Part shown: positions 44,897 through 63,529 of the stretch, in pieces
Position numbering within the stretch: position 1 is the first letter of the stretch
How the letters are laid out: each line of letters begins with the position of its first letter
Source: Chloroflexota bacterium
GTDB taxonomy: Bacteria; Chloroflexota; Anaerolineae; CG2-30-64-16
Assembly: GCA_016876015.1 (NCBI GenBank)
Contig: VGOD01000003.1
Span: 1 to 64,000 of the forward strand
Length of the DNA stretch: 64,000 nucleotides
Direction of reading: 5' to 3'
Notes under the pieces: generated by a model
The model's input: the letters and a program-made list of their open reading frames with translations, nothing else
What the model was told of the DNA's origin: nothing
Database searches by the model: none
Program-made: the position numbers and the translations under genes

Positions 44897-44984
44897 CAAC
44901 ATCCCCATTCGACAGATGACCGCTGCCCGCCTGTCCACGCGCGGGCGATACAACACATCATGCACCACCCTTTGTGGAGAAAGC

Positions 44985-45761: not shown

Positions 45762-45770
45762 GAGGACTCT

Positions 45771-46646
45771 GTGATTCGAACGAACCGGGACAAACTGGTC
45801 AAGATCGCGGTGGGAGGCGAGGTATCTCCGCCCAAGCTCCATGCGCCGACCCAGGCCGACAGCACGGGCCGGTCATTCATCTCCATCGGCATGGCTGGCA
45901 TCGTGTACAACGCGCAGGTGGGCGATCTGGCCTTCGGTTGGAAGGCCGACCATATCGAGCCGGGAGTCTCCATCCACAACCCCGATGAACACGCCGACTA
46001 TGCCATGCACTACCTCACCTGCGTCGGCAACGACGCGGTGGTATCCTCTGGCGAAGCCGCGGGCGCCAGGGGGCTGGTCAGCGGCGAACATGCGCGCTTG
46101 CTGATAGACTTCGCAGCCGACGACCTCGACAGACTGAACATCGGCGACAAGATCGTGATCCAGGGGTACGGCGTCGGCCTGGAGCTGCTCGACTTCCCGC
46201 AGATCGCCGTACGGAAATGCAGCCCGGCGCTCATCGAGAACATGAGGCTGGAGGTGAACCGCGCAGGCCAACTGGTGGCGCCCGTCACGCACACCTTGAC
46301 GCCCCGCCTCATGGGCTCGGGGCTAGAGCTGATCCCCGAATTCGTGGATCAGGACATGGTGAGCGAAGACCGCGCACTGATCGAGGAATTGGGGCTGCTC
46401 GATCTCCGCCTGGGGGACCTGGTCGCGATCCTTGACCAGGATCACAGCTATGGCCGCGGTCTCCGCCAGGGCGGGGTCGTCATCGGCCTGATCAATCACG
46501 GCGATTCGGCGATGACCGGCCACGGACCGGGCGTCATGACGCTGCTCTCGTGCCCGACCCCCGACATCGTGCCGGTGATTGATGCGAGGGCCAACATCGC
46601 CAACTACCTCCCCTTCCCCTCCCGCATGGGGTCACAGGGCAAGTGA
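45771..46646 (+). CDS. DUF4438-type protein, paralog 1
   Basis: TNRDKLVKIAVGGEV...GIVYNAQVGDLAFGWKADHIEPGVSI; paralog of the next gene. Confidence 0.8.
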   Translation: MIRTNRDKLVKIAVGGEVSPPKLHAPTQADSTGRSFISIGMAGIVYNAQVGDLAFGWKADHIEPGVSIHNPDEHADYAMHYLTCVGNDAVVSSGEAAGARGLVSGEHARLLIDFAADDLDRLNIGDKIVIQGYGVGLELLDFPQIAVRKCSPALIENMRLEVNRAGQLVAPVTHTLTPRLMGSGLELIPEFVDQDMVSEDRALIEELGLLDLRLGDLVAILDQDHSYGRGLRQGGVVIGLINHGDSAMTGHGPGVMTLLSCPTPDIVPVIDARANIANYLPFPSRMGSQGK

Positions 46647-46662
46647 ACAGAGTGAGGGAAAC

Positions 46663-47559
46663 ATGCTGCAAACCAACAAGGACAAGCTCGTCAAGATTTC
46701 GGTCATGGGGCACATAGACTCCCCTGTTTTCCCGCCTGTGCCCTGGACCCCACACTTCATCTCGCGCGACGGCAAGCCATCGCTGCTGCCCTATGTCGGC
46801 GGCATCGTCTACAACGTGCGCGTCGGCGACCCGGCGCTTGGCTGGGCCGGCGAGGTGATCGAGCCGGCCGCGAGCATCCGCAACAAGGATCCCCAGGCGC
46901 ATCGTGCGCTCAAAGTCTTCTCATCCATCGGCAACCAGGCCGTGGTGATGACCGGCCGCGCGAGGGGCGCCAAAGGCACAGTGACCGGCAAGAGCGGGCG
47001 CTTTGCCGACCATGTAATCATTGACTTCCCACCTGAAACCCTCGACAACCTGGGGCTGGGCGACTCTATCCTGGTGCGGGCGTGCGGCCTCGGCCTGGCG
47101 ATAGACGGCTTTCCGGGCCTGCGCGTCAAGAACCTGAGCCCTGAGCTGTTGGAGCAGATGGGCGTCACAGCCCAAAACGGCCGGCTGCAAGTTCCGGTGG
47201 TCGCGACCCTGCCGCCAGAGATGATGGGCGCGGGCGCGGGCCTCGACAGCGACGGCGGCGCATTGCAGATCCAAACCGGCGCGCCAGGCGCGCTGGAGCA
47301 ATACGGCCTGACCGGCCTGCGCCTGGGGGATGTGATCGCCATCCACGACTACGAGGCCTTCCAGGCGCCCGGCTTGATGCGGGGCGCGATGAGCATCGGC
47401 GTGGTCTGCCACTGCGACAGCATGAGGGCCGGCTTCGGTCCAGGCATGACGGTCATCCTGTCCGCCAGACAAGACCGCAGCGCGGCGAACGTCATCGAGC
47501 CGGTGCGCGACCTGAACGCCAATATCGCGCGCATCTTGAAGATCGGCGCGTATCGCTGA
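46663..47559 (+). CDS. DUF4438-type protein, paralog 2
   Basis: TNKDKLVKISVMGHI...GIVYNVRVGDPALGWAGEVIEPAASI. Confidence 0.8.
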   Translation: MLQTNKDKLVKISVMGHIDSPVFPPVPWTPHFISRDGKPSLLPYVGGIVYNVRVGDPALGWAGEVIEPAASIRNKDPQAHRALKVFSSIGNQAVVMTGRARGAKGTVTGKSGRFADHVIIDFPPETLDNLGLGDSILVRACGLGLAIDGFPGLRVKNLSPELLEQMGVTAQNGRLQVPVVATLPPEMMGAGAGLDSDGGALQIQTGAPGALEQYGLTGLRLGDVIAIHDYEAFQAPGLMRGAMSIGVVCHCDSMRAGFGPGMTVILSARQDRSAANVIEPVRDLNANIARILKIGAYR

Positions 47560-47642
47560 GAAGAACGCATCTGGCGATTGGGGATCTGTGACCCCGCCAT
47601 CTACCGGTCAAAGTGGCGGTCGCAAACCGCCTGGGAGCCGAT

Positions 47643-48899
47643 ATGACACTTCGTGCTGCAACCCTGAATAGCCCTACCGCGGCGGCCGTCGCAGAACGGG
47701 CCGCGGCCTGGGGACCGCTGGATGCCGGCTCCGGCTGGCCGCGTTGCATCGCCCACGAGGGCCAGCTCGATCTGAGCGCCGACTATGGCGACACAACCTT
47801 GCCGGAAGCGGTCGTCAAAACCGTCGAGGACTCGCTGCTGCGGGGCGAGACGCACTACACCGATCGCCCGGGCCTGCCAGCCCTGCGCGAAGCAGTGGCG
47901 CGCAAGCTGGCGGCCGATCTGCACATCCACGTGGACTGGCGGAACGAGGTCGTGATCAGTTGCGGCGAGCAAGAAGGAGTGTTCCTGGCCCTGCAGGTGC
48001 TGATCCGGCCTGGCGACGAAGTGCTGGCGCCCGATCCCCGGCCCGAATGGTTGGACGAGTCGGTCCGGCTGGCCCGCGGCGTGCTGACAGCCGCGCCGCT
48101 TCTGCCGAAGGATGGCTTCGAGCTGAAGGCGGAGCAGATCGCGGCCCGCCTGACAGACCGGAGCCGCGTGCTGGTGCTGGTGCAGCCCTCGAACCCAACC
48201 GGCGCGGCGATCTCGGCCGGCGAGCTCGGTCGCATCGCGGCCCTCGCGGCCGACCGCAACCTAACGATCATCGCGGATGAGGCGCTGGACGAATCATTTG
48301 CCGGCCAGGCGCGCCATACCAGCATCGCCTCCTTGCCAGAGGCCGCTGGCCGGACGATCGTCGTCGGCAGTTTCTCGAAGTTCTTCGGTCTGGCGAGTTG
48401 GCGGGTCGGCTACTTCGCCGGCCCAAAGGACGCAGTCACGACCATCCGCGACATGAAGCAGGCCATGACGATCTGCACCAGCGCGATGGCGCAATACGCC
48501 GCGCTGGCCATGCTGACGCAGGTCAACGATTGGCTGACGGCGCGGCGGAACGCCCTGGACCAGGCGCGCGAGATCGTGCTGGCCGCACTGGATGCGTTGG
48601 GGCTGCCGCATCCTGCACGCGGGGGGCTGGCCGACGGCCGGCAGGCATCGCCCTACGTCTTCGCGGACGTCCGGCCTCTAAGAGCCGTCTCGGCCCTCAC
48701 CGGCGGTTCCTCGGTGGCGTTCGCCGACTGGCTGCGCACCGAGGCAGAGGTCACGGTCGCCCCCGGCAGCCGCTTCGGTCTTGGAGGCGAAGGATTCGTT
48801 CGCATCTCCCTCTGGCCGCCGCTGTCGGATCTGGAGCAGGCGATGCGCAGGCTGCGATGGGCAGCAGCACGCGCCCAGGCCATGGGAGGCGTCCGATGA
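47643..48899 (+). CDS. class I/II PLP-dependent aminotransferase, divergent (pair 1, member a)
   Basis: QPSNPTGAAIS, IIADEALDESF, SFSKFFGLASWRVGY. Confidence 0.88.
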   Translation: MTLRAATLNSPTAAAVAERAAAWGPLDAGSGWPRCIAHEGQLDLSADYGDTTLPEAVVKTVEDSLLRGETHYTDRPGLPALREAVARKLAADLHIHVDWRNEVVISCGEQEGVFLALQVLIRPGDEVLAPDPRPEWLDESVRLARGVLTAAPLLPKDGFELKAEQIAARLTDRSRVLVLVQPSNPTGAAISAGELGRIAALAADRNLTIIADEALDESFAGQARHTSIASLPEAAGRTIVVGSFSKFFGLASWRVGYFAGPKDAVTTIRDMKQAMTICTSAMAQYAALAMLTQVNDWLTARRNALDQAREIVLAALDALGLPHPARGGLADGRQASPYVFADVRPLRAVSALTGGSSVAFADWLRTEAEVTVAPGSRFGLGGEGFVRISLWPPLSDLEQAMRRLRWAAARAQAMGGVR

Positions 48900-50080
48900 T
48901 GATGCACACCCGAAGAGTAAGCGAAGACGGAACCGCCTTGCGCTACCGGATGATGGAAATGGCCAAGGGCATAAAGGATCTCATCGCCCTGGGCCGCGGT
49001 GATCCTGACCTCGACACGCCGCCGCACATCGTAGCCGCGGCCATTGACGCCATGCGCCGCGGCGAAGCCCTGCACATGCCGCCGCCAGAGGGCCTCTTCG
49101 AGCTTCGCCACGCCATCGCAGACAAGCTGCGCCGCGAAAACGACCTGCTGGTGGATCCCCATACCGAGGTGCTGGTCACCACCGGCGGCCAGGAGGGGTT
49201 GTTCCTGCTCGTCCAGGCATTGGTCAATCCCGGCGATGAAATCCTGATGCCCGACCCCCGCTACACCTCCTATGATCAGGCGATCAACATGGCCGGCGGG
49301 GTGATGGTCTCGGTGCCGACCTACGAGGAGGATGGCTTCGACCTGCGGCCGGAGGAAGTCGAGCGTCGGATCACCCCCCGGAGCAAGCTGCTGCTGCTCA
49401 TTTCGCCGGGCAACCCCACTTCGGGCGTCATCTCGTCGGCGAACAAGCGGCGTCTGGCGGAGATCGCACAAGAGCGCAACCTGCTGGTGATCTCCGACGA
49501 GATCTATGAACGGTTCATCTATGACGATGCGGAGGCGCTGAGCATGGCCGCGCTGCCCGGCATGAGGGAACGCACGATCACACTCAACGGCGTCTCCAAG
49601 ACCTACGCCATGACAGGCTTTCGGGTGGGCTACCTGGCGGCCCCTGCACCGGTGATCGCCGCCGTGCGCCAGCTCAAGATCACGAACAGCCGGGCCACCT
49701 CGGCCATCTCGCAGTGGGCCGCGCACGCCGCGCTGAGCGGGCCGCAGGAGTGCGTGGAAGAAATGCGCCAGATCTACGATGAGCGCCGCCGCGTGATGAT
49801 GGCCGGGCTGGACGAAATGGGCTTCGTCTACTGCCGGCCGAAGGGCGCGTTCTACTGCTTCCCCAACGCGGCCAGCGTCGGCATCAGCGCGGCCGAGCTG
49901 TGCTACCTGTTCCTTGAAGAGGGGCACGTCTTGATCTTCCCAGGCAACGCCTTCGGCGAAAAGTGGGGCGATCACCTGCGCATCTCGCTGTTGGCGCCGA
50001 AGGAGCGGCTGCGCGAAGCTGTCGAGCGAATGCAGCGCACCATCGCGAAGCACAACCTGGGCCGGCCGCGACCGGCATAG
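48896..50080 (+). CDS. class I/II PLP-dependent aminotransferase (pair 1, member b)
   Basis: SPGNPTSGVISS, VISDEIYERF, NGVSKTYAMTGFRVGYLAAP; ATG overlaps the previous stop. Confidence 0.92.
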   Translation: MMMHTRRVSEDGTALRYRMMEMAKGIKDLIALGRGDPDLDTPPHIVAAAIDAMRRGEALHMPPPEGLFELRHAIADKLRRENDLLVDPHTEVLVTTGGQEGLFLLVQALVNPGDEILMPDPRYTSYDQAINMAGGVMVSVPTYEEDGFDLRPEEVERRITPRSKLLLLISPGNPTSGVISSANKRRLAEIAQERNLLVISDEIYERFIYDDAEALSMAALPGMRERTITLNGVSKTYAMTGFRVGYLAAPAPVIAAVRQLKITNSRATSAISQWAAHAALSGPQECVEEMRQIYDERRRVMMAGLDEMGFVYCRPKGAFYCFPNAASVGISAAELCYLFLEEGHVLIFPGNAFGEKWGDHLRISLLAPKERLREAVERMQRTIAKHNLGRPRPA

Positions 50081-50081
50081 C

Positions 50082-51197
50082 ATGACTTTGGGGGACACCA
50101 TGTCGGCGGCGGAGTATCACACCCACTATACCACCGAGCAAATCCCGTTGGTTAGGGTACCCTATGGGCCGCTGCGCGAGCTGATCCGCCAACTGATGCG
50201 GCGAACGCCCCTGTCGCCAGAGGACGCTGACATCATCGCCGACGCGCTGGTGTTCAGCGAGCTGACCAACCTGCAGGGCCAGGGCCAGGGGAGCCGGCGA
50301 GCGCCGTTCTATGTGCAGCGCGCAGTCCAGGGGCAGCTCAACACGCGGACGCAATTCGAGATCGTCAAGGAATCGCCCGCGCTGGCGCTGGTGGACGCGC
50401 ACAACGGCTCTGGCACCGTCATCGCGGTGCGCGCCATGCACCTGGCAGTGGATAAAGCCAGGCAATGCGGTGTGGGCGCGGTGATGGTGCGTCACAGCAC
50501 GCATTTCGGTTCGGCCAGCATCTCGGCCATGCAGGCTTTGCCGCACGGCTGCATCGGCGTCAGCTTGACCAACGCCGGCCCCGAGATGGCGCCCTGGGGC
50601 GGCATTGACCCGGTGCTCGGAACTAACCCATGGGGGGTCGCGATCCCGACCGGGGACAGCGAAGACGATATGCCGATCATCCTCGACATGGCCATCACCA
50701 TGGCTGGCAAGGGGATGATGCGCTGGCTGCTGCGCGATGGCCGCAAGATGCCGGCCACGTGGGCCATCACCCGCGACGGCCGCGCAACCGACGACCCCGC
50801 CGAGGCGCTGGACGGCACGCTGCTGCCCATCGGCGAGTACAAGGGCTATGGGTTGAGCCTGATCACTGATGTGCTGACGGGCGTGCTGAGCGGCTCTGGA
50901 TACGGGATAGTTCCCTTTCGTGACCAGGCGCGGCAGGACGTTGGACACCAGTTCATCGCCTACGACATCGGCTGGTTCATGGATCGCACCGAGTTCTACC
51001 GGCGCATGGCCGATTTCATCGCCATGGTCAAGGGCAGTCGCGTGCGGCCCGGCTTCGGCGAGATCCTGCTGCCGGGCGAGCTGGAGTGGCGGCGGATGCA
51101 GGAGAAGAAACGCAACGGCGTGCCGCTCGACCCTGACGCCTTCGATGCACTGCGCAAGCTCTCGGCGGAGCTTGGCGTGCCCTGGCCGTTTGCCTGA
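50082..51197 (+). CDS. malate/L-lactate/ureidoglycolate dehydrogenase (Ldh_2) family oxidoreductase (start may be ATG 50100)
   Basis: VRHSTHFGSASISAMQA, LTNAGPEMAPWGGIDPVLGTNPWGVAIP, GEYKGYGLSLITDVL. Confidence 0.92.
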   Translation: MTLGDTMSAAEYHTHYTTEQIPLVRVPYGPLRELIRQLMRRTPLSPEDADIIADALVFSELTNLQGQGQGSRRAPFYVQRAVQGQLNTRTQFEIVKESPALALVDAHNGSGTVIAVRAMHLAVDKARQCGVGAVMVRHSTHFGSASISAMQALPHGCIGVSLTNAGPEMAPWGGIDPVLGTNPWGVAIPTGDSEDDMPIILDMAITMAGKGMMRWLLRDGRKMPATWAITRDGRATDDPAEALDGTLLPIGEYKGYGLSLITDVLTGVLSGSGYGIVPFRDQARQDVGHQFIAYDIGWFMDRTEFYRRMADFIAMVKGSRVRPGFGEILLPGELEWRRMQEKKRNGVPLDPDAFDALRKLSAELGVPWPFA

Positions 51198-51220
51198 TGG
51201 CGCGCCGCGCAAGAATCCAC

Positions 51221-51250
51221 GATTGCCGATTGTCGACCATCGGCAATCGC
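51221..51250. promoter_or_regulatory. hairpin enclosing a candidate GntR operator, upstream of the ABC transporter genes
   Basis: CGATTGCCGA-TTGTCGACCA-TCGGCAATCG: perfect 10-bp arms flanking a GATTGTCGACc core. Confidence 0.5.
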
Positions 51251-51365
51251 GGAGTTGCCCAACCCCATCGGGTATGCTATACTCTGGCTGGTGGTTCCCG
51301 CGTCCGGCGCAGATGGACGACTGCTCTGCGGCCTCTTCACCTGCCAGGGGAGTTCAACCGAAACC

Positions 51366-52286
51366 ATGATCACCTATATCATCCGGCGCATCCTAGTCAG
51401 CATTCCGATCCTGTTCCTGGTGGTGTCGCTGGTTTTCTTCGCCTTTCAGATCATCCCGGGCGACCCGGCGCGCATGTACGCCGGCGAGCAGGCCTCGTTG
51501 GAGATGGTGGAGCAGGCGCGCAAGGATCTGGAGCTCGATCGGCCTATGTGGGAGCAGTACGCCTCCTACCTGGGCCGGCTGAGCCGCGGGGATCTGGGCA
51601 AGAGTTACATCACACGGCGGCCGGTCGCTTTGGAGGTGGGCAACAGGTTCTGGAACACGGTGAAGCTGGCCCTGGCCGCGACCCTTCTCTCTACCTTGCT
51701 CGGGATTTCCATGGGCACGGTGTCGGCGGCCAGGCGCGAGGGACGCTGGGACTACTTGCTGACGGTGCTGACCCTGATGGGGATCTCGATGCCGATCTTC
51801 TGGCTGGCGCTGCTGGCCATGTACTTTTTCAGCGTTCAACTCAAGGTGCTCCCCACGACCGGCAACGATACGTGGCGGCACTACATCATGCCGACGGCGA
51901 CCCTCTCGGTATACTCCACAGCTTTCGTGACACGCATGACACGTTCGACGGTGCTGGAAGCCATGAGCGAGGATCACGTGCGAACCGCGCGCGCGAAAGG
52001 ACTACGCGAGTATATGGTGATGACTCGCCACGTGCTGCGCAACGCCTTGATCCCGATCGTCACTGTCGTGGGTTTGCAGTTCGGCTATATGCTTGGCGGC
52101 GCGGTGGTAACAGAGACGATCTTCGCGTGGCCGGGCATGGGGCGGCTGCTGATCTTCGGCGTCTCCCAGCGCGATATCCCGCTGGTGCAGGGCACGCTGG
52201 TGATCTTCGCGGCTGCGTTCGTATTCGTCAACCTGGCGGTTGATGTGATCTATGCGTTTATTGACCCTCGCATCCGTTATGCGTAG
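51366..52286 (+). CDS. ABC transporter permease, dipeptide/oligopeptide type (DppB-like)
   Basis: YIIRRILVSIPILFLVVSLVFFAFQIIPGDPARMYAG; C-terminal GGAVVTETIFAWPGMGRLL. Confidence 0.94.
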   Translation: MITYIIRRILVSIPILFLVVSLVFFAFQIIPGDPARMYAGEQASLEMVEQARKDLELDRPMWEQYASYLGRLSRGDLGKSYITRRPVALEVGNRFWNTVKLALAATLLSTLLGISMGTVSAARREGRWDYLLTVLTLMGISMPIFWLALLAMYFFSVQLKVLPTTGNDTWRHYIMPTATLSVYSTAFVTRMTRSTVLEAMSEDHVRTARAKGLREYMVMTRHVLRNALIPIVTVVGLQFGYMLGGAVVTETIFAWPGMGRLLIFGVSQRDIPLVQGTLVIFAAAFVFVNLAVDVIYAFIDPRIRYA

Positions 52287-52298
52287 GATAGGCGATCC

Positions 52299-53147
52299 AT
52301 GAGACCGCAAAACGTTTGGAACATCGTCTTCCGTTTTGCGCGGCGCCACCGGCTGGCAGCCGTCGGCGGCGCTATCGCGGTCGTCTTTCTGCTCTTGGCG
52401 CTGCTGGCGCCCTGGCTGGCGCCCCATGATCCGAGCAAGATCGCCATGGGGAACGCGCTGCGGCCGCCGGGCAGCGAGTTCCCATTGGGCACCGATCACC
52501 TCGGTCGCGATCTGCTGAGTCGGATCATCTATGGCGCGCGCATCTCGCTGAGCATCTCCTGCGCTGCCGTGGCCATCAGCATGTCCATCGGCGTCTTCCT
52601 GGGCCTCCTGGCAGGCTGGAGTCGCCGGCTGGATATGCCGATCATGCGCATGATGGATGTCCTGCTCTGCTTCCCCGGCATCATCACCGCGCTGACGATC
52701 ATCGCCGTTCTGGGCATCGGCAGCATCAATATCGTAATCGCCATTGCCATCGCCCAGGTGCCGCAGTTCGCACGGGTGGCGCGCAGCCTGACCCTCTCGG
52801 TCAAGGAGAACGCCTATGTCGAGGCCGCCGTCTCCATCGGCGCCAAAGCCCAGCGGATCTTGGGCCGCCACATCCTGCCCAATATCTTTGCGCCGCTGCT
52901 GGTGCAGTTGACCCTGCTGATCCCGGCGGGCATCATGACGATCGCCTCCCTCAGCTTTCTGGGTCTGGGAGTGAGGCCGCCAACGGCCGAATGGGGTTCG
53001 ATGTTGCAGGGCAGCCTGCAATGGGCGCGCCTGGCGCCGCACGTGATGATCTTCCCGGGCCTGGCGCTGATGCTGGTTGTATTCGCGTTCAACACACTCG
53101 GCGATGGTTTGCGCGCGGCCTTGGATCCACGCCTACGCAGCAAGTGA
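52299..53147 (+). CDS. ABC transporter permease, dipeptide/oligopeptide type (DppC-like)
   Basis: PPGSEFPLGTDHLGRDLLSRIIYGARISLSI; SIGAKAQRILGRHILPNI. Confidence 0.94.
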   Translation: MRPQNVWNIVFRFARRHRLAAVGGAIAVVFLLLALLAPWLAPHDPSKIAMGNALRPPGSEFPLGTDHLGRDLLSRIIYGARISLSISCAAVAISMSIGVFLGLLAGWSRRLDMPIMRMMDVLLCFPGIITALTIIAVLGIGSINIVIAIAIAQVPQFARVARSLTLSVKENAYVEAAVSIGAKAQRILGRHILPNIFAPLLVQLTLLIPAGIMTIASLSFLGLGVRPPTAEWGSMLQGSLQWARLAPHVMIFPGLALMLVVFAFNTLGDGLRAALDPRLRSK

Positions 53148-53256
53148 GGCCACGCGCCAGAAAGGAGGCGGTGAAGGGACAATTGTGGATTCGCACTGCA
53201 TCACAGAGTATGCCAACCAGTCTGAATCAGCAAGAATCAACAAGAAGGAGGAACCC

Positions 53257-54939
53257 ATGAAGACCTACCGCGTCCTGGTAGGAATGCTGCTGGTAGCAAC
53301 GCTGATCCTGTCGGCGTGCGCCCAGCCAACCCCTGCGCCGGCGCCCAAGGCCCCGGCCGCCCCAGCGGCCCCGGCGGCCACCGCTGCACCGGCAGCCACC
53401 ACTGCGCCGGCCGCGCCCAAACCCGCCGAACCCAAGATGGGCGGCAACCTGACGATCGCCATCGCAGGGCTGACCACGCTCGATGTCAAGAGCGTGAACC
53501 AGGGGCTCGTAAACGCCGTGATCCAGAGCGTCTACGAAACCCTGACCGACCGCGGCCCTGACGGCAAGATCATTGATACGCTCATCAAGGAACGGCAGAT
53601 TTCCGCGGACGGCCTGGTGCACACCTGGAAGCTCCGCGAAGGCGTGAAATTCCATGACGGCGCGGATTTCAATGCTGCGGCAGTCAAGTGGAACCTCGAT
53701 CAGAAGTATACCGACAAGTACTACAGCAGCGTCACCAACCAGATCCCACTGGACAAGACCGAAGTAGTTGATCCGATGACCGTCAAGGTCACGCTGAAGG
53801 GTCCCTGTCCGCAGCTCTACTCGGTGCTGGCAGTCAAGTCGTTCGCCATGTACAGCCCCGCCTTCTTCGAGAAGGTGGGCAAGGATGCCATGAAGACCCA
53901 GGCTTCTGGCACGGGCCCCTTCATGGTAGAGTCGTACACGCCGAACGAGTCTCTCAAGCTGAAGAAGAACCCGAACTACTGGCAGAAGGGCAAGCCCTAC
54001 GTTGACACCCTCACCTACAAGATCGTGCCGGACCCCAATGCCCGCGCGACGATGCTGGAGGCGGGCGAGGTGGACATCGCCGATGGCCTGTCGTTCCAGG
54101 ACGCCGAACGGCTGAAGAGCAACGCCAACGTCCAGGTGATCACCCAGCCGCAGTCCCGCCAGTACTACGTCAGCCTGACGGTGACCCACCCGCCGCTGGA
54201 CAACGTCAATGTTCGCAAGGCGATCAACCTGGCAGTTGATCGCGAGGCGATCGTCAAGAACATCTTCCGCGGCTATGCACGCGTCGCGCAGACCTTCCTG
54301 GCCAACGATGCGGTGGAGCCGGTGGTGAACACGGGTCCCTATCCCTACAATCCTGCCCAGGCCAAAGAGCTGCTCGACAAGGAGGGCTGGAAGCCCGGTT
54401 CAGATGGCATCCGCGTGAAGGACGGCAAGAGATTGGTGTTGCAGTTGCGCACCACCAAGACCGATGCGGACCGCTGGGCCATCACCGAGCTGGTGCAGGG
54501 CAGCCTGAAAGAAATCGGCATCGAGGTCAACGTCAACGTTGACGACAACGCCGTCTTCCTGGCGCAGGTGAACAAGCCGATCGCCGAGGCGCCGCCCTAC
54601 GACATGCTGGTCCTCACCTGGGGCACCTTCACCGGCGACGCCGCCTATCCGATCGGTTCCGGCTATAGTTGCAAGGCGTTCCCCCCTGTCGCCTACAATT
54701 ACTCTCACCTGTGCGATAAGGACCTGGAGAAACTGATTGACGATGCTGCCCTGGCTCCCACCATGGAAAAGCGTAACGAAATCTACACCCAGGTGATGAA
54801 GAAGATGTTCGATCTGTATCCGGTTCTGAACCTGGTGAACTCGACCGGCGTGTCGGTCAGCCGCAAATACGTGCGCGGCATCTACATTGACCCCGGGCTT
54901 GGTCAGTGGCCTGCGAAGTGGGTGTGGCTCGATAAGTAG
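53257..54939 (+). CDS. ABC transporter substrate-binding lipoprotein, SBP family 5
   Basis: LILSACAQPTPAP lipobox; WKLREGVKFHDGADFNAAAVKWNLD. Confidence 0.94.
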   Translation: MKTYRVLVGMLLVATLILSACAQPTPAPAPKAPAAPAAPAATAAPAATTAPAAPKPAEPKMGGNLTIAIAGLTTLDVKSVNQGLVNAVIQSVYETLTDRGPDGKIIDTLIKERQISADGLVHTWKLREGVKFHDGADFNAAAVKWNLDQKYTDKYYSSVTNQIPLDKTEVVDPMTVKVTLKGPCPQLYSVLAVKSFAMYSPAFFEKVGKDAMKTQASGTGPFMVESYTPNESLKLKKNPNYWQKGKPYVDTLTYKIVPDPNARATMLEAGEVDIADGLSFQDAERLKSNANVQVITQPQSRQYYVSLTVTHPPLDNVNVRKAINLAVDREAIVKNIFRGYARVAQTFLANDAVEPVVNTGPYPYNPAQAKELLDKEGWKPGSDGIRVKDGKRLVLQLRTTKTDADRWAITELVQGSLKEIGIEVNVNVDDNAVFLAQVNKPIAEAPPYDMLVLTWGTFTGDAAYPIGSGYSCKAFPPVAYNYSHLCDKDLEKLIDDAALAPTMEKRNEIYTQVMKKMFDLYPVLNLVNSTGVSVSRKYVRGIYIDPGLGQWPAKWVWLDK

Positions 54940-54950
54940 GGCAGTTACCC

Positions 54951-55096
54951 ATGCCCGCCGCGGCGCCAGCCTGTCCTGGCCGACAGGCCAGGACAGGCTG
55001 GCTGCACCATACAGGCCAGGGTGCGAAGCCTCCCCGTGGGACGGCCAGTGAAAACATCCTGGTTTGGAGGCTTCAGCCGGTTACATTGTCTGGCGA
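54951..55096 (+). repeat. dispersed intergenic element A, copy 5 (3' truncated)
   Basis: GTGCGAAGCCTCCCCGTGGGACGGCCAGTGAAAACATCCTGGTTTGGAGGCTTCAGCCGGTTAC. Confidence 0.85.
54966..55001. terminator. perfect 16-bp stem hairpin just after the SBP gene
   Basis: CCAGCCTGTCCTGGCC-GACA-GGCCAGGACAGGCTGG. Confidence 0.5.
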
Positions 55097-55182
55097 GAGT
55101 GGCGCAAGATGGCATCTTGCGTTACGTCTTCATCACCCGTCAGGCGCCTGGCGGGCTTCATTCGATCATTCCCGGAGGAATC

Positions 55183-56133
55183 ATGCTCACACCTCACCCT
55201 CGCAAGGCAAACGCCTACACCCAGAACGGGCAACCCGTAGTGGTGAAAGCGCCGCATTTCAACGGCGACTATCTGCCCTTCTCGGTCGCCGAGGCCGTGC
55301 ATTTGCTCGGCGGCCTGGATCGGGTCATCCGGCCAGCCGACCGCGTCCTCATCAAGCCTAATTTCAACTGCTCCTACGCGCTGCCGCTCTCCACCGATCT
55401 CGCCTTTTTGGCCGCAGCGATCGAGCTGCTGCAAGACGCCGGCGCACGGGTCATCGTGGGCGAACTGTCGGGCCGCGCCGATTGGCCGACCGATAAGGTG
55501 GTGCGCAACCTAAACGTCATGCCGGTCCTCCAACGCTACGGCGTGCCTTTCATCAATTTCGAGTATGACCAATGGCTGCCGATGGAGATCCCGGGCCGTT
55601 TCTTCAAGTCCATTCGCGTGCCGCGCACGATCTACGAGGCAGATAAACGCGTCTACCTGGCCAACATGCGCTGCCATTCGGCCGGCCGTTTCTCCGGCGC
55701 GCTCAAGCTGGGCGTCGGTTGGATTGATCTGGAGGACCGCGACTGTCTCCACGCAGACACTGCCACCGTGGAACTCAAAGTCCCCGAGGTTCACCTCGGC
55801 TGGCAGCCCGACCTGGTGCTCATGGACGGCCGGCGCAGCACTGTGGCCTGGCACGGCCGTGGGGATTATGTCTACCCCAACCTCATCATGGCCTCTGGCG
55901 ACATGGCCGCGATTGATGCACAAGCGGTGGAAATCCTGAAGGGTTTTCCGGCCAAGAACCGACTGGACATCCCGACAGCCGAGATGGGCCAGCTCAAGGC
56001 TGCGGTCGAGCTCGGCTTGGGCCAAATCGAGAGCCTGGTGGTGGAAGCCGAGGGACGCCGGGCTACCGAGCAGGAAGGAATGCTGCGCGACCCGGCCCTG
56101 CTGAAACACGCAGCCGAGTTCAAGGCGAGCTAG
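55183..56133 (+). CDS. DUF362-type protein
   Basis: DRVLIKPNFNCSYALPLSTDLAFLAAAIELLQDAGARVIVGELSG; ALKLGVGWI. Confidence 0.75.
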   Translation: MLTPHPRKANAYTQNGQPVVVKAPHFNGDYLPFSVAEAVHLLGGLDRVIRPADRVLIKPNFNCSYALPLSTDLAFLAAAIELLQDAGARVIVGELSGRADWPTDKVVRNLNVMPVLQRYGVPFINFEYDQWLPMEIPGRFFKSIRVPRTIYEADKRVYLANMRCHSAGRFSGALKLGVGWIDLEDRDCLHADTATVELKVPEVHLGWQPDLVLMDGRRSTVAWHGRGDYVYPNLIMASGDMAAIDAQAVEILKGFPAKNRLDIPTAEMGQLKAAVELGLGQIESLVVEAEGRRATEQEGMLRDPALLKHAAEFKAS

Positions 56134-56153
56134 GCTGACCGAAGGCGACTGCG

Positions 56154-57314
56154 GTGTTAGAAGAAGAAATCCGGCGTTTTCTACAAATCGCTCTGGCTCT
56201 CAACGCGTCCGTGGGCCAGCGAACCGGCGTCGAGCCGCTGCTTTCGACCGAAACCTATGACTACGGCTTCCCGGCCCCCGCGTGGGACTGGGAGGAGATC
56301 GGCCGCCAGATCGAGGAGCTCCGACCGGCCATCAGCTCTTTTCCCGCAGCGCGGGCCGGCTTCCTGGCTGACCTGACGACGTCCTTCGAGATGATGGCCC
56401 GCGAAGGGCAGGGCGATCGCGTCCCATATGCCGAACGCGTGGTCGCCTACTTGCAGGTTCCCGGCGAGCGAGTTCCCCAGGCCACGATCGCCGCGCTGGC
56501 CGAGGATCTGCGGGGCCTGCTTGTCGCCGAGGGCTACGCCGACGACCTGGCCATCGCATTGCCGCAGTGGATCGAGCGCCGCAGCATCCGCGGCGAGGCG
56601 CTGCAAACGTTGGCCGAGGAGCTGATGGAGCAGGCGCGCACGACGACGAACGAACGCATCATGCCTCTGCCGGCCGAGCACCGCGTCGAGCTGTCCTTTC
56701 CCAAGAACTTCCCGTTCAACGGCTACAGCGCGTACAAACGAGACTATCGCGGCACGGTCGAGCTGAACGGCGACATCGGCTGGCATATCCCGGCCCTCAA
56801 ACACCTGGTCTGTCACGAGGCGTTCCCGGGCCACCAGACCTTCTCGGCGCTGCGCGAACTGCGCTACCGCCAGGGCCTGATACCTGTCGAGGGCACCCTC
56901 TACTTCTCCAACACCCCCATCACCCCGATCGTCGAGGGCGCGGCCGAGATCGGCCAGGAGCTGTTGGGCATGGTGAAGACGGCCGACGACCGGCTCTTCG
57001 ATGTGTATAACCGCTACCAGTCGGCGTGCGCCACCAACCTGGCGTTCGACTGCAACGCCGACGGCAAGGACCAGGAGACGGCTGTCCGCGAGTACATGGC
57101 GCTGACCCACGTCCCGCGCGGTCAGGCCGAGCGACGCTACCGCTTCTGGAGCCATCCGTTGTGGCAGACCGGCTTCCCGCACTATTGGTACGGCCGGGAG
57201 TTCATGCAGGAGTGCTATCAGCGAATGGCCGCGGATGTACCTCGCTTCGTGGAAATGATCTACACCGAGCCTCACACCGTTCGCACGCTGCGTGAGGCGG
57301 TTCTCACGGCATAG
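56154..57314 (+). CDS. DUF885-like putative metallopeptidase
   Basis: LVCHEAFPGHQTFSALRELRYRQGLIPVEGT (HExxxGH-type motif) and the VEGAAEIGQELLG region. Confidence 0.7.
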   Translation: MLEEEIRRFLQIALALNASVGQRTGVEPLLSTETYDYGFPAPAWDWEEIGRQIEELRPAISSFPAARAGFLADLTTSFEMMAREGQGDRVPYAERVVAYLQVPGERVPQATIAALAEDLRGLLVAEGYADDLAIALPQWIERRSIRGEALQTLAEELMEQARTTTNERIMPLPAEHRVELSFPKNFPFNGYSAYKRDYRGTVELNGDIGWHIPALKHLVCHEAFPGHQTFSALRELRYRQGLIPVEGTLYFSNTPITPIVEGAAEIGQELLGMVKTADDRLFDVYNRYQSACATNLAFDCNADGKDQETAVREYMALTHVPRGQAERRYRFWSHPLWQTGFPHYWYGREFMQECYQRMAADVPRFVEMIYTEPHTVRTLREAVLTA

Positions 57315-57364
57315 TGAAACACCGTCAGGCGACTGACGGATGATGGGACATTATCAAGACGGTT

Positions 57365-57563
57365 GTGTGTGCCGGCCGCGACGCCACTGCGCAGCCTCTC
57401 TGTGGGACGGGGGATGAAAAACAGGTGGGCTGGAGTGGAAAAATGTCCCGGTTTGGAGGCTTCAGCCGGTTACGCTGTTGGCGAGAGTGACCGGCTAATC
57501 CTAAAGGAGGCTTCGCACAGCCTCGAGACCAGAGCGGTGGGCGGTGATTTTTCAGAACAGGAG
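57365..57563 (+). repeat. dispersed intergenic element A, copy 6
   Basis: CTGTGGGACGGGGGATGAAAAACAGGTGGGCTGGAGTGGAAAAATGTCCCGGTTTGGAGGCTTCAGCCGGTTACGCTGTTGGCGAGAGTGACC. Confidence 0.9.
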
Positions 57564-57570
57564 ACCAGTT

Positions 57571-58713
57571 ATGTTAACACGCTTCGCACTCGAACAGGAT
57601 GTCGCCCGGCGGGTCGCCAGACTCCAGGCGCTCATGAAAGAGAAGGGCCTGGGCGCGGTTTTCATCCCGGCGCGCGGCGCGCCCGGTCTCATGGGCGTCG
57701 CCAAGTACTTCACCAATCTCGTGCTATGGGCCGGTCCGGCTTACGTAGTCGTGGGCGCGGAGCATCCCGAGCCGGCCCTGATCCAGTGGTCGGCCTATGG
57801 CGCCCAGTGGAACCGCCAAGAGGCGACCACACCCTGGGTCGAAAACCCGGACCCGGACGCCTTCGGCCGCAGCCTGGAGATCGCCCGGCAACTGGCAGGC
57901 GCCACCAGGCGCATCGGCATCGAACACCTGAAAACCAGTTGGCTGGTCGGCGAGTGGGATCGCTTCCAGGCCGCGATGACCGGCTATGAGACGGTGGACA
58001 TCAGTCGCGACATTGACCAGATGCGCGCGATCAAGTCCGCCTTCGAGATCGAGGAGATCTACAACACCGGGCGCATCTTCACCCAGGCTTTCGAACGTTT
58101 TGCCGAGGTGGCCTGGCCAGGCGTGCGCGCCTGGGACGCAGCCACCGAGGCCGAGGCGATCCTGAAGGCGGCCGGTTGCTTTTGGGGCCGCTCCAAATAC
58201 TCGCTGGACCTGCGGCCATACACGATCCCGACCCCGTTGGACCGCTGCTTCACGGAAGACGACATCATCCTGTTCGAGCTGGTGTACACCGGCCCATTGG
58301 GCTATTGGGACGAGATGACCGCGATCTACAGCTTCAAGGAGCTGCCGGCGAGCATTCGCGCCCAGATCGAGGCGCACGAGCGCGTCATCGAAACCGCCGC
58401 CCAAACCGCGCGGCCAGGCGTTCCCATCGGCAAGATCGCCGAAACCAACCTCCAAACCTGGAAGGACCTGGGCTTTCCGGTGATCGGCCGGCACACGCCC
58501 GATTGCCACAGCATCGGCCTGGACGAGAGCGACGGCCCCTCTTCGTGGTTCACGCCCGATTGGCCGCTGGAGGCCAACATGGTGCTCTCGTTCCATCCCA
58601 GCACACTGCTGGAGGGCACCAAGGCGTTCCTGGTTTCGGACAACTACCTGGTGACGCCGCAGGGCGCGGTGCGTTTGTCGCCCAAGACGTGGACCTATCG
58701 CCGCATCGGCTGA
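57571..58713 (+). CDS. M24-fold protein (creatinase/ectoine-hydrolase-like), metal ligands degraded
   Basis: N-terminal creatinase-like half; MRAIKSAFEIEEIYNTGRI; RHTPDCHSIGLDESDGP; no canonical EP/ED ligands. Confidence 0.82.
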   Translation: MLTRFALEQDVARRVARLQALMKEKGLGAVFIPARGAPGLMGVAKYFTNLVLWAGPAYVVVGAEHPEPALIQWSAYGAQWNRQEATTPWVENPDPDAFGRSLEIARQLAGATRRIGIEHLKTSWLVGEWDRFQAAMTGYETVDISRDIDQMRAIKSAFEIEEIYNTGRIFTQAFERFAEVAWPGVRAWDAATEAEAILKAAGCFWGRSKYSLDLRPYTIPTPLDRCFTEDDIILFELVYTGPLGYWDEMTAIYSFKELPASIRAQIEAHERVIETAAQTARPGVPIGKIAETNLQTWKDLGFPVIGRHTPDCHSIGLDESDGPSSWFTPDWPLEANMVLSFHPSTLLEGTKAFLVSDNYLVTPQGAVRLSPKTWTYRRIG

Positions 58714-58752
58714 ACGCGACATGCCAGTAGTGAGCCACTCCCAGGAGTGCTG

Positions 58753-59814
58753 ATGACGCACACCTCATCTTCGCCAATCGAATCGGCCGCGCGCGCCTAT
58801 GGGTGGAGCCCCATCACGGACTACCCGCCGTTCTACATGCCCGCCGAAATTCGCGAGGGGATGATCCAGGCTCTGGCCCGCGGGGAAACGCACTACGCGC
58901 CCGTGCCAGGGGTGCCGGCTCTGCGAGAGGCCCTGGCGCGGTATCTGGCCACCCTGGGCTGGCGACTCAAGGCGGACGGGAATACGGTCATCACGAACGG
59001 CGAACAGGAAGCGCGCTTTCTGGCGATTCAGGCTCTCTGTCGAGACGGCAAGATCCTGGCTCTGCCGGCGCAGGCGCACCCCGGCGTTGCACAGGCGGCC
59101 GGGGTCGGCCAGGTGCAAACCATCTCGATGCCCGGCAGCCAGGATGGCAGCCCAGAGCCTGACATCGCCGCCATCCTGACCGCGCTCGAGCGGGGCGCGG
59201 ACGTGCTCTATCTCGAAAGCCCCCATCGGCTGACCGGCAAAGCGTTCGAGGCGGATGAGCTGGCCGCCATCGCCGCGGCCATCGAGGCGGCCGACGCACG
59301 AGTGATCTGGGATCAGAGCCTGGCATCGCTGGTGCGGCCGGATAGACGTTACGTCTCTCCCGGCGCCATCGCTGCTTTGGCCGCTCGCTGCCTGGCATTG
59401 GCTGCGCTCTGGCCCACCCTGGGCATGGAAGAGTATCAACTGGGATACATCGCTGGCGACGAGGCGCTCATCCAGCCGATCCAGACACTGCGGCAGATCA
59501 TCGGCATTTGCACGACGACGCCGGCGCAGTGGGCCGCGGTGGCCGGAGCCGAGCACATGGCCAACCTGCTGCAAGAGCGTTTGACCGAGCTGACGTTAAC
59601 TCAAGAACAGGGGCTGGCGTTTCTGCAACAGGCGCGGGTCACACCGCTCGACGGCGATACCGTGGCCTACCTGGCGTTTCGTGCGCCGTGGCCGCGCGGC
59701 GCCTCGTTGCTGGCCGAGCTAACCCAGGTAGGCTTTCTGGTCGCATCGGGCGAACCGTTCGGCGCGCCGGATGTGGTCAGACTGACGACAACCTCGCGGC
59801 TGCTGGCGCTTTGA
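58753..59814 (+). CDS. aminotransferase-fold protein lacking the PLP lysine (pseudo-aminotransferase; pair 2, member a)
   Basis: GETHYAPVPGVPALREALARYL fold signature; ALWPTLGMEEYQLGYIAG replaces SVSKxxxMxGxRxGY. Confidence 0.82.
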   Translation: MTHTSSSPIESAARAYGWSPITDYPPFYMPAEIREGMIQALARGETHYAPVPGVPALREALARYLATLGWRLKADGNTVITNGEQEARFLAIQALCRDGKILALPAQAHPGVAQAAGVGQVQTISMPGSQDGSPEPDIAAILTALERGADVLYLESPHRLTGKAFEADELAAIAAAIEAADARVIWDQSLASLVRPDRRYVSPGAIAALAARCLALAALWPTLGMEEYQLGYIAGDEALIQPIQTLRQIIGICTTTPAQWAAVAGAEHMANLLQERLTELTLTQEQGLAFLQQARVTPLDGDTVAYLAFRAPWPRGASLLAELTQVGFLVASGEPFGAPDVVRLTTTSRLLAL

Positions 59815-59845
59815 GGGCAGAGGTCTTCACGACGAAAGACAGAGA

Positions 59846-61015
59846 ATGACGACAAACCCGGACAGAGCCCAACCGGCCGCGCCGGCCATCAGTACAGCCA
59901 CCCTCTACGGCCTGATGGCTAAGGCAAGGGCCTACGATGATCGGATCGAGTTGGGCCGCGGCGATCCCGACTTTGACACCCCGCCGCACATCGTTGCGGC
60001 GTTCGCCGAGGCGATCAAGCGGGTTTGGAGCGAGCCCAACCCGCCTGAGGGCATCCTGCCGCTGCGCGTGGCAATTGCTGAGCGGCTGCGCCGGGTGAAT
60101 CGCATCGAGGCGGACCCAGAGACCGAGATCGTCGTCACCAACGGCGGGCAGCATGCCCTCTTCGTCATGGTGCAGGCGGCGCTGGCGCCCGGCGATGAGA
60201 TCCTGGTCCCCGATCCCAACTACAACACCTATCGGGACGCCATCGCATTCGCGCACGGGGTGAGGGTCAGCGTGCCGACCCACATCGAAGAGGACTTCCG
60301 GGTGGATCCGGCGCGGGTGGCCGCGGCGATCACCCCGCGCACGCGCGGCCTGCTGATGGTGTCGCCGAACAACCCGGCAGCGTCCGTGATCTCCCGCGGG
60401 GATGTGCAGGAGCTGACGGAGCTCGCGCGGGCGCATCATCTGACCATCCTGGCCGACGACATCTATGATCGGTTCTTGTACGACGGGCTCGAGCACGTCA
60501 GCCCGGCCTCGCTGCCGGGAGTCAAGGACTACACCCTGACCCTGAACGCGGTCTCGAAGCAATACGCCATGTGCGGCTGGCGGCTGGGGTGGATCGCTGG
60601 ACCGGCTCATCTGATGGAGCGTGTCCGGCAGATCAAGGCCAGCATCTCGGGCAGCACCTCGTTGGTTGCGCAGCACGGCGCGTTGGCCGCGCTTAACGGT
60701 CCAGACGATTGCATCGTGGAGATGCAGCAGGCCTACGCCCGGCGCCGCGAGGTGGTCATGCAGGGGCTCGATCGGCTGGGTCTTCGCTATGGCAGGCCGC
60801 AGGGCGGACAGTTCATCTTCGCCGACATCAGCAGCACAGGGATGACATCGCTCGAGTTTGCGGCCTGGGTGCTGGAAGAGGCGCACGTCTTGCTCTATCC
60901 GGGCGGCGCCTTTGGTGCGGCGTTCGACCATTTCATCCGCATCACGTTTCTTCAACCGGAAGAGCGCCTGGCAGAGGCCCTCGAGCGCATCGCCAGGCTC
61001 ATGAACAAGTCCTGA
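59846..61015 (+). CDS. class I/II PLP-dependent aminotransferase (pair 2, member b)
   Basis: ILADDIYDRF, NAVSKQYAMCGWRLGWIAGP. Confidence 0.92.
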   Translation: MTTNPDRAQPAAPAISTATLYGLMAKARAYDDRIELGRGDPDFDTPPHIVAAFAEAIKRVWSEPNPPEGILPLRVAIAERLRRVNRIEADPETEIVVTNGGQHALFVMVQAALAPGDEILVPDPNYNTYRDAIAFAHGVRVSVPTHIEEDFRVDPARVAAAITPRTRGLLMVSPNNPAASVISRGDVQELTELARAHHLTILADDIYDRFLYDGLEHVSPASLPGVKDYTLTLNAVSKQYAMCGWRLGWIAGPAHLMERVRQIKASISGSTSLVAQHGALAALNGPDDCIVEMQQAYARRREVVMQGLDRLGLRYGRPQGGQFIFADISSTGMTSLEFAAWVLEEAHVLLYPGGAFGAAFDHFIRITFLQPEERLAEALERIARLMNKS

Positions 61016-61031
61016 AGGAGAACAGTCAGAG

Positions 61032-62048
61032 ATGGCAGATCAAGCGAAGTGGATCGGGCACAAGGTCGGCACGGCCGACGCCAGGCCCGGCGAGATGGTG
61101 AGAGGCGGCATCCCTATCGTCGCGGACATGTATGGTCGCGAGCGGCTGATGCCAGTGGTGGTGGCGTGCGGAGTGGAGCCAGGGCCGGTGATCTGGCTCA
61201 ACGGCGCGATCCACGGCGACGAACCAGAGGGGCCGTGGTCAATCGCTCTGGTCATGCGGCAGATTGACCCACAGCAGTTAAAAGGCGTGGTGGTCGCGGT
61301 CCCCGCGATGAACGTGGACGCGCTGACCGCCGGGACGCGCGGCGACCCGCTGGACACCTTCACCTACGACATGAACCGGGTCTACCCTGGCAGCGCGACG
61401 GGCCGGGCGACCGAGCGCGTGGCGTATGCGCACTACCAGGCCATGATGGCCTCGGCCGATTACCAAATCGCCATCCACTCCGGCGGCGATCACTCGTACC
61501 TCTCGCAGATGATCTTTGCGCCGGAGATGCCGCAATGCCTGGAGCTCGCCGCGGCGATGGGGCCAGATTTCCCGTTGGTCTTCACCTCGCTGCTCAAAGC
61601 CGGCGATCCGACCTCGGAGCTGGTGAAAAAGGGCGGCGGCGGCATCACGGTCGAGCTCGGCGGGCAATGCCGCACCCTGACCCGCGACTTCGATACCGTG
61701 TGCCAAACGCTGGCGCGCAGCATGTTGAACGTCCTGCGGCACTTCGGCATGATCCCCGGCCAGGCGCACTACTGCCGCTCATGGAAGCGCGGCCATCAGG
61801 TTGCGCTGCTGGCCAACGCCACCGGGCTCTGGATCGGCGATCCGGGGCTAGAGTTCCATCGAGAGATGGCAAAGGGCGCGGCTCTGGGGCAGATCGTCAA
61901 CCTGTACGGCGACGTATCAGAAACGGTCGTGGCCCCGGCAGACGGCCTGGTATTTGGCCTGCGGCATCGGCCGCAGGTGCGCGTGGGCGACTGGATCTGC
62001 TTCTACGGCGTCGTGGACGAGATACGCGACAACCTGCTGCCGCGGTAG
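61032..62048 (+). CDS. succinylglutamate desuccinylase/aspartoacylase (M14-type) family deacylase
   Basis: LNGAIHGDEPEGPWS (HxxE), AVPAMNVDALTAGTR, DMNRVYPG, IAIHSGGD. Confidence 0.9.
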   Translation: MADQAKWIGHKVGTADARPGEMVRGGIPIVADMYGRERLMPVVVACGVEPGPVIWLNGAIHGDEPEGPWSIALVMRQIDPQQLKGVVVAVPAMNVDALTAGTRGDPLDTFTYDMNRVYPGSATGRATERVAYAHYQAMMASADYQIAIHSGGDHSYLSQMIFAPEMPQCLELAAAMGPDFPLVFTSLLKAGDPTSELVKKGGGGITVELGGQCRTLTRDFDTVCQTLARSMLNVLRHFGMIPGQAHYCRSWKRGHQVALLANATGLWIGDPGLEFHREMAKGAALGQIVNLYGDVSETVVAPADGLVFGLRHRPQVRVGDWICFYGVVDEIRDNLLPR

Positions 62049-62065
62049 CCTGGCGACTGCACTTC

Positions 62066-62109
62066 CCCCCCACGCGCCAGCATTACGGAAGCGCCTGGCG
62101 CGTGGGGGG
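62066..62109. terminator. GC-rich perfect 15-bp stem hairpin after the deacylase gene
   Basis: CCCCCCACGCGCCAG ... CTGGCGCGTGGGGGG; no clear U-tract. Confidence 0.5.
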
Positions 62110-62352
62110 CGATTCTCAGGACAGTTGTTCATGCCGGGCGCAGCGCCAGCCCGCCCCCTGGCCCGTCGGCCAGGACAGGCTGGCTGCGCCATGCAGGCCA
62201 GGGTGCGCAGCCTCCCTGTGGGACGGCCCGTGGAAAAATGTCTCGGTTTGGAGGCTTCAGCCGGTTACGCTGTTGGCGAGAGTGACCGGCTAATCCTAAA
62301 GGAGGCTTCGCACAGCCTCGAGACCAGAGCGGGCGGCGATTTTCAGGACAGG
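62108..62352 (+). repeat. dispersed intergenic element A, copy 7 (apparently full length)
   Basis: Bounded by direct repeats GCGATTCTCAGGACAG (left) and GCGATTTTCAGGACAG (right). Confidence 0.92.
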
Positions 62353-62359
62353 CGACGAC

Positions 62360-63529
62360 GTGGCCAACAACAGTGAAGCGCGGCCGAGGTGGCGTGTACC
62401 GCGCACCAACAACCCGAAGGTTCACCGCCGGCTGCAAGAGGCGCTCACAGAGGCGGTCGCAGCCGTGCTCTATGGCGACCCGTGGGAGGCCCAACAACTG
62501 ATCGGCCAGTTCGAGCGCGCTTTCGGCCAGGCGCTGGGTCACCGTCACGTCTCCGCGGTGCAATCCGGCTCGGCGGGGCTGCGCCTGGCGCTGCTGGCCT
62601 GCGGCGTCCGGCCCGGCGATGAGGTGATCACCGTCGCTAACTCGGACATCGCCACGACCGCCGCGATCTCGCACTGCGGCGCGAGCCCGGTGTTGTGCGA
62701 TGTACGGGCCGATGACTACACCATTGACCCCGACCGGGTCGCAGTGTTGATCGGTGAGCGCACGGTTGGGCTGCTGCCGGTTGACCTGCACGGCCATCCG
62801 TCCGATGCGGCGGCTCTGCGAGCGATCGCCGATCGGCATGGTCTCTTCATCGTGCAAGATGCGACCCTGGCGACGGGCGCGCGCGACCGCGGGCAGCGGC
62901 TGGGCGCCTACGCCGATATGATCGTGTTTTCCTGCTCGCCCTTCAAGCCGTTTTCGGGGATCGGTTCTGGCGGCCTGGTCGCGACGGAACAGCCGCCGCT
63001 CTGGGAACGGGTCGAGTTGCTGAAGGGCTATGGCGCCCGCCGCGGGGCGACGCCGCCAGTGACTTACTATCACCTGGTCGAGGGCTACAATCTCTCGATG
63101 TCGCCAATGGAGGCGGCCGTGCTCGCGGTCAAGCTGCCGTATCTGGCGACGTGGAGCGCCAAGCGCCGGCTGATCGGCCAGTGGTATGCAGAGCGACTGG
63201 CTGGCATCCCCGGCGTCGGCCTGCCCCAGCCGCGTCGCGAGGCAGAGGCGATCTATCGCACCTATACGGTGCAGGTTCCGCAACGCGATGAGGTGTACCG
63301 CCGCCTGCACGAACAGGGTATTCATGCCGCGTTACACTACGTACCGCCGGTCCACCAGCAGCCCGTCTATCGGGAGCGGCGCTTGCGCGGAGCCGACTCG
63401 CTGCCGATCACCGAGGCATTAGCAGCCCGCACGCTCAGCCTGCCGGTTGACCCCGAGTTCACGGAGGCCGAGGTGGACCTGGTGTGCGATGTGCTGCGAG
63501 CGACCCTGGCAATGACGCCGCGGCCATGA
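62360..63529 (+). CDS. DegT/DnrJ/EryC1/StrS family aminotransferase
   Basis: HVSAVQSGSAGLRLALLACGVRPGDEVITVANSDIATTAAI, FSCSPFKPFSGIGSGGLV. Confidence 0.9.
   Translation: MANNSEARPRWRVPRTNNPKVHRRLQEALTEAVAAVLYGDPWEAQQLIGQFERAFGQALGHRHVSAVQSGSAGLRLALLACGVRPGDEVITVANSDIATTAAISHCGASPVLCDVRADDYTIDPDRVAVLIGERTVGLLPVDLHGHPSDAAALRAIADRHGLFIVQDATLATGARDRGQRLGAYADMIVFSCSPFKPFSGIGSGGLVATEQPPLWERVELLKGYGARRGATPPVTYYHLVEGYNLSMSPMEAAVLAVKLPYLATWSAKRRLIGQWYAERLAGIPGVGLPQPRREAEAIYRTYTVQVPQRDEVYRRLHEQGIHAALHYVPPVHQQPVYRERRLRGADSLPITEALAARTLSLPVDPEFTEAEVDLVCDVLRATLAMTPRP

Follow-up and report, generated by a model that had tools for sequence, protein, structure and literature searches.

In the textbook picture, a class I aminotransferase is a symmetric homodimer whose two active sites are shared between the subunits. 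The interface residue Tyr65 of the E. coli enzyme (Tyr64 in Thermus) is in contact with the PLP phosphate in the opposite subunit, and in E. coli AAT Arg-254, eight residues beyond the Schiff-base lysine, binds the PLP phosphate and Arg-374 binds the substrate carboxylate (PMC9309667). Paired enzymes with one degenerate subunit have been described in other families. The LCB1 subunit of eukaryotic serine palmitoyltransferase lacks the PLP lysine and other catalytic residues, and one active site per dimer is the working hypothesis (PMC3794620). In trypanosomatid deoxyhypusine synthase and AdoMet decarboxylase, an impaired catalytic subunit needs a dead paralogue, the prozyme (PMC3663545, PMC5201418). 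The glycine cleavage P-protein GcvPA/GcvPB is a bacterial two-gene PLP fold type I enzyme, one subunit of which has no lysine. No heterodimeric class I aminotransferase, bacterial included, was found in the open-access literature searched, most subscription papers lying outside it.

The window, meaning the whole stretch of 64,000 nucleotides analysed here, contains two adjacent genes that are proposed to encode such an enzyme; alpha and beta denote the two members of the proposed pair and of its relatives.

58753-59814, + strand: PSE (beta subunit), aminotransferase-fold pseudoenzyme of 353 residues, supported by the open frame, Pfam PF00155, 56 relatives and an AF2 model
59846-61015, + strand: AT3 (alpha subunit), intact aminotransferase with its lysine and with Pro at the lent Tyr64 position

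The PSE/AT3 pair resembles the LCB1/LCB2 and prozyme arrangements but belongs to neither family. Like LCB1/LCB2 (SPTLC1/SPTLC2), in which LCB1 retains residues thought to participate, it would be a heterodimer of PLP fold type I. Unlike the PSE/AT3 pair, LCB1/LCB2 is a eukaryotic, membrane-bound alpha-oxoamine synthase and not a class I aminotransferase pair, and the PSE family also has a reduced sister of about 240 residues and a lysine-bearing sister. The prozyme systems share the dependence of a catalytic subunit on a dead paralogue but have unrelated folds and are eukaryotic, and GcvPA/GcvPB belongs to a decarboxylase family. Thermus thermophilus AspAT (1bjw) and related class I enzymes share the fold and residue framework of the pair but are homodimers with two active sites encoded by a single gene.

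Active-site positions of the lysine-less subunit

PSE matches the Pfam Aminotran_1_2 profile (PF00155) over residues 31-346 with an E value of 9e-22. Its AlphaFold (AF2) model, obtained with an alignment of 15 sequences, has a pLDDT of 81.6 and a pTM of 0.84, and its best PDB matches in Foldseek are Thermus AspAT and relatives (TM about 0.78). Since class I aminotransferases give its best matches by both profile and structure, PSE is not a member of the LCB1 family. The Thermus AspAT numbering used here comes from a reference sequence that was entered by hand and agrees with the part of it that was retrieved. The positions concerned are as follows.

58894-58896, + strand: Tyr48 codon, equivalent to the lent Tyr64 of Thermus AspAT (Tyr65 of E. 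coli AAT), whose role at the partner's PLP phosphate is taken from PMC9309667; Tyr in 73/73 readable beta subunits
59077-59079, + strand: His109 codon, conserved in the old PLP pocket; His in 53/57
59227-59229, + strand: Arg159 codon, replacing the PLP-ring Asn (N175 in Thermus); Arg in every readable PSE relative
59311-59313, + strand: Asp187 codon, the Asp of DxxY (Asp203 in Thermus); conserved in all readable relatives
59413-59415, + strand: Pro221 codon (CCC) at the Schiff-base lysine position; codon read and relatives' alignment
59437-59439, + strand: Gln229 codon (CAA) at the PLP-phosphate Arg position (R242 in Thermus, R254 in E. coli); codon read, alignment and PMC9309667
59494-59529, + strand: segment Q248-Q259, QIIGICTTTPAQ, inferred to reach the partner's site; its I-C-T core is kept in beta and is G-[GP] in alpha
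59779-59781, + strand: Arg343 codon, the substrate-carboxylate Arg (R361 in Thermus), kept; codon read and alignment

Judged as a catalytic class I aminotransferase, PSE meets the criteria of fold and profile and of the carboxylate Arg, and fails those of the Schiff-base lysine, the PLP-phosphate Arg and the PLP-ring Asn and Tyr, with Leu190 occupying the last position (Tyr206 in Thermus). An initial annotation of this DNA had claimed that the PLP lysine is Pro at 59413-59415 and that the neighbour at 59846-61015 is an intact paralogue. Both claims held, and this neighbour and the gene at 48896-50080 have the lysine. It had also assigned the change to Gln at 59437-59439 to the carboxylate-binding Arg; the substitution held and the label failed, the position being that of the PLP-phosphate Arg, and the carboxylate-binding Arg is retained as Arg343. 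The reported degradation of the NPxG and DxxY motifs (SPHRLTG and IWDQSLASL) held, except that the Asp of DxxY is kept.

His109, Arg159, Asp187 and Arg343 are conserved in the former PLP pocket of the full-length dead subunits and may form a ligand site. As a set, they are absent from the short subunits of about 240 residues described below.

Conservation, pairing and sister pairs

Of 396 genomes searched from the same class, 14 besides that of the window contain clear PSE relatives, with 33-37% identity, and PSE and AT3 occur in an identical set of genomes (15/396). A scan with one genome per species gave 57 loci, 56 of which are true PSE relatives, mostly from Anaerolineae and also from two Trueperaceae, a Spirochaetaceae, two Armatimonadota and Flexilinea flocculi TC1. 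One locus (L068, JAHHHY010000011.1) is recorded as Pleurocapsa minor, a cyanobacterium; it has the Anaerolineae form, and the organism label looks wrong. No clear PSE relative was found in ten genomes searched of the same family as the source, a patchy distribution that may reflect horizontal acquisition of the locus.

None of the 56 readable PSE sequences, window included, has the Schiff-base lysine, the position being Pro in 43, Ser in 7, His in 4 and Ala in 2, with one gap. The phosphate Arg is also absent (0/56), Asn175 of Thermus is Arg in all readable sequences and Tyr206 is lost, while Asp203 is kept in all readable sequences and Arg361 in 51. Nearly all relatives lie directly 5' of an intact AT3-type gene, and AT3 starts no more than 60 bases past the PSE stop in 45 of the 48 loci measured. 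The exceptions are L075, with a spacing of 269 bases, and L102 and L103, in which other genes intervene; the contigs of L058 and L107 end at this point, leaving the pairing unreadable.

PSE evolves faster than AT3, with a mean pairwise identity of 48% versus 68% and a median pairwise dN/dS of 0.31 versus 0.14. PSE is nevertheless under purifying selection and is not decaying. This bears out the initial annotation, which regarded the intact frame as selected rather than decayed and named lysine-bearing orthologues, frameshifts and relaxed selection as the observations that would refute it; each was looked for, and the lysine is absent throughout, the frames are intact and dN/dS argues against decay. 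The pattern is also wider than the single gene to which that annotation referred, extending to a second pair in the window and to pairs with short subunits in other genomes.

47613-48899, + strand: AT1, beta-type subunit of full length with the lysine retained; partner of AT2
48896-50080, + strand: AT2, second alpha-type aminotransferase, with Met at the lent Tyr64 position; 4-base overlap between its ATG and the AT1 stop
L173 804-1502, L164 8531-9268, L165 15733-16443 and L166 6960-7826, also L174-L185: short lysine-less subunits directly upstream of lysine-bearing AT2-type genes

AT1 is the only beta-type subunit found with the lysine, and its own Tyr206 position is Leu. No lysine-bearing AT1 orthologue was found in the 396 genomes of the class, the best matches being generic aminotransferases with 38% identity. 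In the sister beta subunits, which accompany AT2-type genes, the aminotransferase part is only about 240 residues long and lacks both the lysine and the small C-terminal domain, and these subunits keep the (T/D)HYT.RPG and KQ..TICT..(S/G)Q segments.

PSE, the short subunits and AT1 form one clade in the tree (100/99), and AT2 and AT3 form another (99/95). Within the genome, the paralogue closest to PSE is AT1 at 47613-48899, with 33% identity across residues 22-292, instead of the neighbour at 59846 (24%) with which the initial annotation had paired it. The idea that PSE arose as a duplicate of this neighbour is unsupported, as PSE groups with 47613. AT1 branches first among the beta subunits, and the full-length dead subunits and the short ones join each other; long branches meet there, so that one loss of the lysine and two losses are both possible.

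Own-site and lent residues are divided between the two genes

The lent Tyr64 is present in 73/73 beta subunits and in 61/61 unpaired relatives, in 27/55 AT3 sequences and in 0/17 AT2 sequences; for alpha versus unpaired proteins the Fisher p value is 7.5e-17, with relatedness not corrected for. By parsimony, this column has undergone at least 25 changes in the alpha tree, where the median column has 8, placing it within the fastest 4% of columns. In the beta subunits it has undergone at most one change against a median of 19.5, and the lysine and phosphate-Arg columns have undergone 15 and 18, respectively. The second lent segment corresponds to residues 265-267 of Thermus AspAT, which we take to lie at the partner's active site by inference from AspAT structures. 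It is I-C-T in beta, mostly G-[GPA]-x in alpha and mostly I/M-C/S in the unpaired relatives.

The own-site residues are kept in alpha, and the sole exception among AT3 sequences is a row derived from a broken frame. Beta loses the own-site Lys, Asn, Tyr and Arg yet keeps the lent Tyr and the ICT loop; alpha retains its own-site residues, and the lent ones are disappearing from it. Constraint has thus been swapped between the two genes, as would be expected if the alpha site alone works and is completed by beta.

The unpaired controls were sampled from generic aminotransferases of the same class and of a few other genomes and do not represent the whole superfamily. Three of 62 presumed unpaired controls were without the lent Tyr64, and all three had a degenerate beta-type gene directly upstream. 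They were removed from the unpaired set once these genes were found. AT2 orthologues were also identified by profile in 13 more genomes, and 13/13 have a degenerate beta subunit upstream.

The proposed composite active site and its rivals

The loss of the lysine, the gene pairing, the co-occurrence, the purifying selection and the reciprocal way in which own-site and lent residues are split are shown. On this basis it is likely, with a probability of about 0.76, that 58753 (beta) and 59846 (alpha) assemble into a heterodimeric class I aminotransferase in which each dimer has a single working, composite active site, although no complex has been shown and dimerisation is inferred. Alpha would carry PLP on its own lysine, and beta would be unable to hold PLP. 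Across the interface, beta would supply the Tyr that contacts the PLP phosphate of alpha and a loop lining the substrate site of alpha, both roles being inferred from homologues. What can be asked of the sequences, namely that beta be encoded with a catalytic homologue, that the lent residues be kept and that the partner's copies be relaxed, is met; the physical dimer and PLP on only one subunit are inferred. The initial annotation had left open whether PSE is a regulatory or a heterodimeric subunit. The heterodimer with a catalytic partner is better supported, as the two genes divide the trans-acting residues between them, and a regulatory role is not excluded. Against the heterodimer, half of the AT3 sequences keep the lent Tyr64, so homodimers are possible for some, and genes intervene between the pair in L102 and L103. 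Against a pure helper, Arg159 and His109 are newly fixed in the PSE pocket and Arg343 is kept, which may mean ligand binding.

The rival that survives best, though unlikely, is that PSE binds AT3 mainly as an allosteric sensor of an amino acid or other anion in the remodelled pocket formed by Arg159, Asp187, His109 and Arg343. It is favoured by the new fixed residues of the pocket (Arg for Asn in all readable sequences, His in 53/57 and the carboxylate Arg in 51) and by the faster evolution of PSE. However, a sensor alone leaves unexplained both the loss of the lent Tyr64 in alpha and the sisters of 240 residues, which have no small domain and keep the lent segments, and a sensor role can coexist with the heterodimer. 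A second possibility is that PSE is itself an enzyme but one of altered chemistry, which works with PMP or some other cofactor in the absence of a Schiff-base lysine. Some sugar dehydratases work with His in place of Lys, and the fold, Asp187 and Arg343 are retained in PSE; but the lysine position is occupied by Pro, Ser, His or Ala and changes at roughly the rate of an average column, and the phosphate Arg and Tyr206 are lost as well, making this reading very improbable. It is no more credible that PSE only stabilises or folds AT3 without contributing catalytic residues; the pairing and co-occurrence would be accounted for, but the constraint on beta is concentrated on the segments reaching the partner's active site. 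Decay, sequencing error or chance, that is, a pseudogene next to an ordinary aminotransferase, draws on the degraded motifs alone and is all but excluded by the 56 relatives, the conserved pairing, the intact frames and a dN/dS well under 1.

A bolder version of the heterodimer reading, towards which the balance of evidence tips slightly, is that bacteria contain obligate heteromeric aminotransferases whose second subunit has degenerated stepwise, beginning with a lysine-bearing form (AT1) and passing through a full-length dead form (58753) to a remnant of 240 residues without the small domain, with the segments that complete the partner being kept.

Genomic setting and significance

All examined genes from 44967 to 63529 are on the + strand, in the order SDR, two DUF4438, AT1, AT2, Ldh_2, two oligopeptide-type permeases, a binding protein, DUF362, a protein with no family match, M24, PSE, AT3, an AspA/AstE deacylase and DegT.

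51255-54939, + strand: oligopeptide-type ABC permeases and binding protein, between the two pairs
57544-58713, + strand: M24 (creatinase/prolidase-like) gene directly 5' of PSE; M24 also occurs near PSE at other loci
61032-62048, + strand: AstE/AspA-type deacylase gene 3' of AT3; members at 42/57 loci

Related loci additionally hold an S9 peptidase and more AspA/AstE copies, and, as in the window, the short beta/AT2-type pair in L164 and L165 adjoins genes for DUF4438 and Ldh_2. By inference, the neighbouring genes suggest that the cluster imports and degrades some acylated or peptide-like amino compound; the substrate is not identified. In this view, the PSE/AT3 complex would have its role in importing and degrading an amino acid in acylated or peptide-like form.

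Two tandem DUF4438 proteins are encoded at 45771-47559 beside AT1/AT2, and a DUF4438 pair is also found with AT2 in L164 and L165 and with PSE/AT3 in L104. The gene at 56154-57314 encodes a protein of 386 residues with an HExxxGH-like motif (HEAFPGH); it has no match in Pfam or NCBIfam and has a relative in the Flexilinea locus L103.

The division of own and lent residues over two genes, together with a shrinking helper, makes it testable which residues must come across the interface of an aminotransferase. The series also bears on the origin of obligate heteromers and of pseudoenzymes, and genes of this kind, labelled simply as aminotransferases, may fail if expressed alone.
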